Below, piece by piece: positions 23,597 through 32,722 of a stretch of 64,000 nucleotides of DNA. The DNA comes from Neisseria chenwenguii (GTDB lineage: Bacteria > Pseudomonadota > Gammaproteobacteria > Burkholderiales > Neisseriaceae), in assembly GCF_002216145.1 (NCBI RefSeq), contig NZ_CP022278.1, forward strand, positions 434,001 to 498,000, read 5' to 3'. Each line of letters begins with the position of its first letter. Within the stretch, counting starts at the first letter, position 1. The notes beneath the pieces were generated by a model. It did no database searches. It saw nothing but the letters and a program-made list of their open reading frames with translations, and was not told the origin of the DNA. The position numbers were made by a program, and so were the translations under genes.

Positions 23597-24766
23597 TTAA
23601 AGATCACTGCCTTTCAAATCGCGGGTATAGACTTTCGGCTCGACATCCCGCAGGTTGTCGCTCAGGCGGTTGGCAAGAATGATGTCGGCACGGCGTTTGA
23701 ATTCGGCCAAGTCTTTGACGACTTCCGAACCGTAAAAGTCGTTGCCGCCATAGGTTGGTTCGTACACGATCACAGGAATGCCTTGGTCTTTGATCCGTTT
23801 CATGACGCCCTGTATGCTGGAGCTTCGGAAGTTGTCCGAGCCGGATTTCTATGGTCAGGCGGTACACGCCGACGACGGACGGATTGCGTTTCAAAACGTC
23901 TTCGGCGATAAAGTCTTTGCGTGTGCTGTTGGATTCGACAATTGCCGTGATGAGGTTTTGCGGAATATTCTGGTAGTTGGCCAAAAGCTGTCTGGTGTCT
24001 TTGGGCAGACAGTAGCCCCCGTAGCCGAACGACGGGTTGTTGTAGTGGCTGCCGATACGGGGATCGGCCGATACGCCGTCGATAATGTGGGCAGCATCCA
24101 AGCCGAATGCGGCGGCAAAAGAATCCAGTTCGTTGAAGAATGCCACGCGCAAAGCCAGATAAGTGTTGGAAAACAGTTTGATGGATTCGGCTTCGGTCGG
24201 GTCGGTCAGGATAATCGGCGCATCAGGTTTCAGGCTGCATTCGCGCAAGGCTTCTGCAAACCGTTGCGCCGCTTCGTTGGTATCGCCCACAACAATGCGC
24301 GACGGATAAAGATTGTCGTAAAGCGCTTTGCTTTCGCGCAGAAATTCGGGAGAGAAAATAATGCGGTCCGTATGGAATTTTTCGCGCATTTTTACGACGA
24401 AGCCGATGGGGATGGTGGATTTGATAATAATCCAAGCTTTATTGTTTTGCGCCAAAGCGGCTGCCAGTACGGATTCTACCGAGCTTGTGTCGAAGTAGTC
24501 GGTATCGGGATCATAATCGGTCGGCGTAGCGATGATGATATAGTCGGGATCGGCATACACTTCGTCCGCATTAGTGGTGGCGTGCAGGTCGAGTTTCTTG
24601 GTTGCCAGATATCCGCTGATTTCCTCGTCTTGAATCGGCGATTTTTTTGGTTGATGAGACCGACTTTTTCTGCGCTGACATCGAGCAGCGATACTGTGTG
24701 TTTTTGGGCGAACAGGACGGCATTGGAAAGGCCGACGTAGCCTGCGCCTGCTACGGTGATTTTCAT
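23597..24766 (-). pseudogene. ugd: UDP-glucose 6-dehydrogenase, broken by two frameshifts
   Basis: Would oxidise UDP-glucose to UDP-glucuronate. The N-terminal NAD-binding part is MKITVAGAGYVGLSNAVLF; reading leaves frame after LINQK at a run of seven A (24642-24648), where eight A would continue KKSPIQDEEI as in E. coli Ugd. The middle, in a second frame, holds the catalytic segment NNPSFGYGGYCLPKDT. At about 23850 an extra base (ATAGAAATCC instead of ATGAAATCC) breaks it again; the rest, MKRIKDQGIPVIVYEP to the end, returns to the first frame. Repaired length would be 389 residues (E. coli 388). It overlaps the upstream gene by 4 nt (ATGA). Sequencing error is an alternative explanation. 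Confidence 0.88.
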
Positions 24767-31543: not shown

Positions 31544-32722
31544 TCAGACAGGAGTTTCGCCGATAATGCAGCCGACTTCCCTGACCATCCGCTCCAAACC
31601 GTCAAAACGCAGGGTATCTCGTGCGTCCAACTGCGGTTTCTGCGCCTGCATCCAGCGGCTTAAGGCTTCGGGGGTCAGATTGTCCGGGTGCAGACAGTCG
31701 GTAATGCCCATTTCCGCCAGCCGCGAAGCGCGGATCCACTGTTCGGTTCGCGGTTTGATGCGCGGTACGATTAGGGCACGTTTGTGGAAAGACAGGATTT
31801 CCGTAGTAGTGTTATAACCACCCATGGAGATGATACATTATGCGTTTTGCATGATTTTCAGCGGTTCGGGCACGAAATCCACTGCCTTGATGTCTTTTCG
31901 CGTACCTGCCATTTGATGCAGTTTTTCGCGTTACGCTTCGGGCATCAGCGCACCGGTAATTAGCAGCCCGCTCCAATTATCAGGCAGTTGCGACTGCATA
32001 AAGGCTTGTGCCAGTTCGAAGCCGTCTTGGCCGCCACCGACAACGCAAAGCGCATAAGGCGGCGAGACTTCCGCCATGATGGTATCCAAACCGTGCTCTT
32101 CCTTGCGGCGGCTCTGGTCGAGATAGCCGACGTAATGGATTTTTTCGACAATATCGGCGGGAATATGGTATTCACGGGCAAAATCATAGAGGTTGGGATC
32201 GCCGTAAACCCAAATGGTGGAAAAATACAGGCGGATAATTTCGATGTTTTTCAGTTTTTTCCATTGGTTCAAGACGGCTTCAGGCTCATCAATAATATCG
32301 CGCACACCCAATACGATATGGGTTCCACGGCTGGCCAGCTCGGGCAGAATGTTGTCCAACTCGTTCATGGCACCGCGCGGAACATTATCGATGACGACGA
32401 TGTCCGGCTCGAATGCTTCCAATGCGGCATGAATGATGTTTTTGCGGATATTGACCAAACGCTTGACGTCTTTACCCAGCGAACGCGGAATATACTTGCC
32501 GTCTGAAGTTTTATAGTATGTCGGCATGGTAACGCTGTCTGCGCCTTTGGAGAGCTTGAAAGCACCGGATTCGCGAACACCCGAAAGCAGCAACACGTCG
32601 GCATCAGGATAGGCTTCCAAAACTGCTTGAGACAGCAGCATATTGCGGCGGATATGGCCCAAACCCATGGTATCGTGCGAGTAGAAAGCAATTCTGGGAG
32701 CCTCTTTGTTTTTTGTTGTCAT
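31544..32722 (-). pseudogene. COG4671-type glycosyltransferase with two in-frame stop codons
   Basis: First gene of the glycan operon. A single reading frame of 393 codons encodes a MurG/GT28-like predicted glycosyltransferase: IAFYSHDTMGLGHIRRN at the N-terminus, IVVIDNVPRGAMNELD in the middle and CIISMGGYNTTTEILSF near the C-terminus. TAA codons interrupt it at 31931-31933 (after ALMPEA) and 31838-31840 (after IMQNA). The frame is otherwise open and family-like on both sides, so two point mutations explain the damage. The nucleotide-binding C-terminal lobe would be lost. Confidence 0.87.

Follow-up and report, generated by a model that had tools for sequence, protein, structure and literature searches.

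Six leftward genes and a divergent porin gene in Neisseria chenwenguii probably form a seven-gene cassette, mobile by horizontal transfer, whose products make and secrete an acidic glycan; the copy in this genome has decayed. The cassette lies within a stretch of 64,000 nucleotides (hereafter the window) that corresponds to positions 434001-498000 of a genome consisting of one contig of 2,496,444 bp. Most likely, the operon arrived horizontally as a bounded cassette and is decaying here. Its genes form a minus-strand run from 32722 to 23597, in which they are separated in turn by 71, 11, 15 and 20 nucleotides and the last two overlap by 4 nucleotides. Open reading frame (ORF) coordinates and the sequence thus bear out the order, strand and spacing given in a preliminary description of the locus, and the gene identities given there (a COG4671-type glycosyltransferase, two GT4 enzymes, an ABC exporter, a tandem aminoglycoside phosphotransferase (APH)-like protein and ugd) also hold, partly by way of intact orthologues. 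The same description missed the breaks in three of the six genes, the entry as a bounded cassette nearest to Pasteurellaceae copies, and the outer-membrane barrel that goes with the system. The features are as follows.

23410..34487, no strand assigned: whole cassette (porin plus six genes), between panC (22573-23409) and panB (34488-35279)
31544..32722, minus strand: GTx, COG4671/GT28-like glycosyltransferase, broken by in-frame stops (pieces 31931-32722 and 31544-31837)
30252..31472, minus strand: GT4a, 406 amino acids, open (PF00534, 3.3e-40)
29059..30240, minus strand: GT4b, 393 amino acids, open (PF13692, 2.3e-32)
27108..29043, minus strand: ABC exporter half-transporter, broken (ABC_membrane and ABC_tran in a single chain; one frame change near 28.55 kb)
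24763..27087, minus strand: tandem kinase, 774 amino acids, open (two APH stretches by Pfam); kinase A is residues 1-432 (25792-27087) and kinase B about residues 440-774
23597..24766, minus strand: ugd, UDP-glucose 6-dehydrogenase, broken (two frame changes, near 24.645 and 23.848 kb)
33179..34351, plus strand: divergent porin (Porin_4, 390 amino acids), open, proposed outer-membrane partner (PF13609, 2.5e-17)

The core GTx-GT4a-GT4b-ABC-kinase recurs in one order from Neisseria and Pasteurellaceae to Planctomycetota and cyanobacteria. Contigs from GTDB were scanned with two motifs, and the best 80 of 206 relatives, chosen by the kinase alone, were joined with the loci of two other Neisseria genomes (L004 and L005) to give 82 loci. 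By tblastn, the core is complete on one strand in 74 of the 82, with identical order in all 74. ORF-based gene calling, which missed genes in GC-rich loci, yielded 67 complete loci, again all in order. Seven of the eight incomplete loci (L031, L037, L061, L064, L071, L072 and L082) are at contig ends, and the eighth, cyanobacterial L075, has no tblastn match to GTx or ABC. All five genes are also present in environmental Thauera (L023) and Lampropedia (L013) loci, which were not individually checked for breaks. Over 60 loci, the five core genes have correlated distance matrices (r 0.79-0.90), a value to which the shared ancestry of the hosts contributes. The conserved gene order is far beyond chance, and the surroundings of the core are unlike across phyla. 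Because a single order is kept from Neisseria to Planctomycetota and cyanobacteria, we consider the core a functional unit. The preliminary description had called for a search for the same gene order elsewhere, and the finding that these genes are not scattered supports its view of a dedicated glycan assembly and export unit.

The system is rare but widely scattered. A sample of 398 phylum genomes at E 1e-30 yielded a match in the source genome only (with at most two first-look candidates scored per genome listed), and the kinase occurs in 3 of 46 genomes of Neisseria and 3 of 83 of Neisseriaceae. Further kinase copies in the protein database carry the names N. perflava (71%) and N. dentiae (67%). 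An eight-gene form occurs at ≥99% in 18 of 5,426 E. coli genomes, always on plasmids. In the plasmid record examined, two overlapping genes encode kinase A and kinase B, and genes for an AlgE-like barrel and Ugd come next. Loci with A and B as two genes include L089 and L072, and in L082 the two lie in different frames.

Several observations point to entry as a discrete unit. DNA comparison of window positions 20001-38000 with about 19.5 kb from each of L004 and L005 revealed similarity running from 23597/23610 to 34350/34351, which ends at the ends of ugd and the porin gene, and the flanks beyond are unlike among the three Neisseria genomes. The distance between panB and panC is 11,078 bp in the window versus 25-266 bp in 14 of 18 relatives from the same genus, a set that excludes the two other cassette carriers. 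In the remaining four, the genes are 874 bp apart (one genome) or panC is lacking within a 3.8-kb stretch (three genomes). At E 1e-40, the porin has exactly the distribution of the kinase among the 46 Neisseria genomes, each being present in the same three, and it occupies the same position in L004 and L005. DNA uptake sequences (DUS) number six in the 9,126-bp operon compared to 112 in the other 54,874 bp of the window. The several DUS noted earlier are therefore present, although they are about three times sparser than in the surroundings. DUS cores are also found at the cassette edges, with four in 23410-23596 and two in 34352-34487. Given uptake sequences at both edges, transfer by transformation is plausible.

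As to the source, the nearest outside relatives of the L004 and L005 proteins are from Pasteurellaceae for all five core genes. A kinase tree built by a quick method with SH-aLRT support places the three Neisseria copies in a clade (100) inside a nine-member group that includes six Pasteurellaceae rows (100), and leaves the branching within this group open. Scans of viral contigs for a phage or viral origin returned no relative.

Decay of the window copy was judged by tblastn of intact orthologues from L004 and L005, two genomes in which all seven cassette genes are open. Three of the six operon genes (GTx, ABC and ugd), or three of seven counting the porin, are broken. GTx aligns in a single frame over its full length at 76-77% to the intact orthologues, yet it contains in-frame stops; the ABC gene has one frame change and ugd has two. 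The other four genes (GT4a, GT4b, kinase and porin) give unbroken alignments. Sequencing error might account for the frame changes, but it is disfavoured because GTx carries in-frame stops. Phase variation was also considered as the source of the breaks; by eye, one ugd break is within a run of seven A residues and the others are at no obvious repeat. Nine other window ORFs (456-1532 amino acids) are open, which is a weak control for sequencing error since they were chosen as long ORFs. The decay may be recent, because the end branch of the window kinase in the tree (0.26) is no longer than those of the other two Neisseria copies (0.26 and 0.47). Between the window kinase and P0001, a copy in the protein database, 2 of 774 positions differ. 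Residue 158 is Cys in the window but Arg in P0001 and in 58 of 69 aligned rows (RYKP motif), possibly a further sign of relaxed selection.

Both kinase halves look active, as judged by their conserved residues. In an alignment of 69 rows (17 of 86 homologues were left out), HxD and DxD are kept in both halves of all 69. Position 315 is Gln in every row, whereas position 657 is Gln in 66 and Asn in 3. The basic residue at 180 is Arg in 46 rows and Lys in 23, and Lys508 is invariant (69/69). Thus, each half has the HxD loop, metal-binding DxD and basic ATP-site residue of an APH-fold kinase. P0001 has an AlphaFold2 (AF2) predicted local distance difference test (pLDDT) score of 95.0, and maltokinases rank first in Foldseek, both for the whole kinase and for kinase A alone (top five E-values for the latter). 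The earlier suggestion of phosphorylation is consistent with two kinases that appear active, and the precursor named there is one possible target.

Several database records name the protein 'aminoglycoside phosphotransferase family protein', and the fold is indeed that of APH. A tandem drug-resistance enzyme in a self-protection or small-molecule export locus is nevertheless very improbable. The kinase gene is accompanied by those of three glycosyltransferases, and often by one for Ugd or an AlgE-like barrel. The loop HGDxxxxQ, which is the Gln form of glucosamine (GlcN) kinases according to the portion of the source available (PMC6520443), is present in 67 of 69 rows, and HGDxxxxN in none. 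The sole NCBIfam model matched at E 1e-3 is a lanthionine synthetase kinase. Among four proteins compared with PADLOC as a candidate anti-phage system, the ABC protein alone matched, to ATPase-type models.

The intact ABC orthologue of L004 carries PF00664 and PF00005 in one chain and resembles P-gp, Sav1866 and MsbA. Four intact orthologues score 409, 424, 380 and 379 bits against the MsbA model TIGR02203 (cut-off 602), and remain under the cut-off of every NCBIfam family listed at E 1e-80, including lipid A, glucan, peptide and heme exporters. Because no cut-off is reached, the substrate is not readable from the sequence; equally, there is no sign of the known drug or peptide exporter that the preliminary description named as a refutation. 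Wzm/Wzt and KpsM/T exporters are of the two-subunit kind, and the L004 exporter lacks such separate membrane and ATPase subunits. This fused, ABCB-type half-transporter makes it improbable that the locus encodes a conventional O-antigen or capsule with its missing steps located elsewhere, as does the cohesion of five genes across phyla despite unlike surroundings. Such a pathway would fit the presence of Ugd and the resemblance of GT4a to EpsE and WcaL, its nearest NCBIfam models, which both fall under cut-off.

Outer-membrane barrels recur beside the core. Neighbour genes were counted by sequence cluster over the 82 loci, with one to five members per cluster checked by Pfam. An AlgE-like barrel is present in 24 loci, in 23 of which its gene lies immediately downstream of that for the kinase, and all five cluster members scanned exceed the Pfam cut-off for PF13372. 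These are relatives rather than the window, whose barrel is Porin_4. The AlgE-like barrel of L011 has no match among PDB sequences at E 1. Other barrels include Porin_4 in L080, an OmpG-type porin in L032, and OprB downstream in L079 and L083. The latter two are cyanobacterial loci that match only over kinase B and have a two-component pair upstream. Since an outer-membrane barrel accompanies the system, a water-soluble secreted product is favoured over a membrane glycolipid. Of the 'short glycan or glycolipid export' proposed originally, the glycan export unit stands and the membrane glycolipid has become the less favoured form.

Barrels also bear on the possibility that the core makes a glycolipid, such as glucuronosyl diacylglycerol or a polyprenyl glycan, that is flipped by the ABC protein as in the MsbA/lipid A or PglK systems, with the barrels being incidental. 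We consider this unlikely. The exporter does score best on MsbA-type models (up to 424 bits), and GTx has a GT28-type domain, a fold that also acts on lipid acceptors. However, barrels of four Pfam families adjoin the core in lineages that are not related, the porin and kinase of Neisseria share one and the same set of genomes, and a flipped glycolipid would presumably need no barrel.

The link to glucuronate made in the preliminary description is supported by the placement of Ugd, which directly follows the kinase in Neisseria and Pasteurellaceae, adjoins it on the opposite strand in four Vibrio loci, and, on the E. coli plasmid, belongs to the same run as the core genes and the gene for an AlgE-like barrel. 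Ugd proteins of L004 (334.5 bits) and L089 (342.2 bits) exceed the cut-off of 189.8 for TIGR03026, a nucleotide sugar dehydrogenase subfamily, whereas their best model, the equivalog NF011631, gives 583 and 569 bits, respectively, under its cut-off of 757. The nearest other ugd match in the source genome is 28% identical, and no second close ugd was found there. Among the glycosyltransferases, the window pieces of GTx have no Pfam match, whereas the intact L004 orthologue contains Glyco_tran_28_C, the GT28-type C-terminal domain. Against PDB sequences, the GTx orthologue gives weak MurG/YjiC matches (best E 1.2e-4), and the porin gives only weak matches to OprF-named chains among solved structures (best E 0.013).

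Building on the observed gene content, strict order, open relatives, porin co-occurrence, boundaries, catalytic residues and breaks, we infer the reactions of a pathway, their sequence, its product and the passage through a barrel. Ugd would supply UDP-glucuronate, from which GTx, GT4a and GT4b, as three cytoplasmic GT-B glycosyltransferases, would assemble an oligosaccharide or short repeat. Kinases A and B may phosphorylate a sugar precursor and/or the nascent chain to add a charge, a cap or an export tag, in the manner of WbdD in the O9a system. The ABCB-type exporter would carry the glycan over the inner membrane as a homodimer, and an outer-membrane barrel would release it (the porin in Neisseria, an AlgE-like or OprB barrel elsewhere). 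More tentatively, phosphorylation of the glycan or its primer by two sugar kinases, mostly fused, might license export by the ABCB exporter, with interchangeable barrels (AlgE-like, OprB or general porin) completing a separate, previously undescribed pathway that has spread horizontally through several phyla.

A number of findings weigh against such an acidic glycan secretion system. Three of the seven genes are broken in the window. The cluster contains no gene for an initiating phosphoglycosyltransferase or a polymerase, and hence chain start and polymerisation are not explained by our proposal. No PF13372 match was found in any of six Pasteurellaceae genomes carrying the operon, and neither of the two Pasteurellaceae neighbours scanned is a barrel: that upstream in L006 is a sugar-diacid regulator, and the 177-amino-acid protein of L008 has an AAA domain. 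The Neisseria porin could be a passenger, porins being common. Because Ugd-like genes are near only 13 of 82 loci (that of L027 being only 29% alike), glucuronate may be lineage-specific. Kinase A is apparently not universal, as L079 and L083 matched kinase B alone. Finally, kinase A superposes weakly on maltokinases in three dimensions (template modelling (TM) score 0.40-0.45, root-mean-square deviation 13-15), and maltokinase is absent from the 50 matches listed by a second aligner (VIA; residues 117-432).

The remaining neighbours are diverse. Two-component genes are frequent among the 82 loci (sensor kinase 18, response regulator 20). In five Planctomycetota loci (L033, L034, L035, L043 and L051) a gene of a sulfotransferase cluster, one member of which was scanned by Pfam, lies between ABC and kinase, hinting at a sulfated product. 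In Phycocomes L024, a gene for a GalE-type UDP-glucose 4-epimerase (12220-13245) overlaps the end of the kinase gene, hinting at galactose in the product. In Cereibacter L057, the gene downstream of the kinase (11969-14035) is a fusion of the glycosyltransferase/sucrose-phosphate-phosphatase-like type. Polysaccharide co-polymerase (PCP) and outer-membrane polysaccharide export (OPX) partners were absent from the scanned cluster genes and neighbours, which were the only parts of the genomes searched. Neighbours in L054 (HemN) and L067 (AraC) appear unrelated to the system, and those of L025, L028, L035, L066 (316 amino acids), L074 and L077 have no Pfam match. About a third of the scanned neighbours were uninformative. 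Elsewhere in the window, positions 45403-50001 (minus strand) encode a fused 4-alpha-glucanotransferase/branching enzyme of 1532 amino acids (GH77 plus GlgB, MalQ-GlgB), adjoined by glycogen phosphorylase (40250-42736) and an isoamylase-like gene (43046-45052). The fusion is ordinary for the genus, because 26 of 46 Neisseria genomes match it at E 1e-50, including 20 in which the match covers almost the full length.

We found no published description of the system among the papers listed in searches of the open-licence PMC literature, subscription papers being outside the search. The accessible text of a Neisseria capsule paper (PMC6202450) covers capsule region A genes, which are other than the window locus, and that of a Rhizobium paper (PMC3557214) is unrelated to the system. 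If our interpretation is correct, the known Wzy, ABC and synthase routes are joined by one that pairs two glycan kinases and can exchange its outer-membrane barrel, and a misleading annotation of the kinase that resembles drug resistance is corrected.

On comparison with known systems, we regard the cassette as a form of ABC-dependent glycan export and not as a class of its own, because its parts belong to known families, although the combination and the paired kinases match no system we can name. The alginate exporter AlgE is similar to the PF13372-type barrel whose gene immediately follows that of the kinase in 23 of 82 loci. However, the core glycosyltransferases are GT28/GT4-like, unlike the Alg8-type synthase of the alginate route. 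The half-transporters MsbA, glucan exporter and PglK also have ABC_membrane and ABC_tran in one chain, and the cassette exporter scores against the MsbA and glucan-exporter models, but stays under the curated cut-offs; the PglK model is matched only by the broken window piece. Maltokinase and actinobacterial glucosamine kinase (4u94, 6hwl) share the HGDxxxxQ and DxD loops and an N-terminal region with three long strands. They differ in that the tandem protein has two kinases per chain, superposes weakly overall, and in 0 of 69 rows matches the glucosamine kinase consensus Q-x2-RE-x2-YA-x3-LP-x-W, as given in the portion available of PMC6520443. The O-antigen export system of E. coli O9a likewise combines glycosyltransferases in the cytoplasm with an ABC exporter, and its kinase, WbdD, acts on the glycan ahead of export, according to the accessible part of its description (PMC3482155). 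Yet WbdD joins a kinase to a methyltransferase and has a coiled coil, whereas the cassette has two APH-type kinases, a fused ABCB exporter and no methyltransferase gene in the operon.
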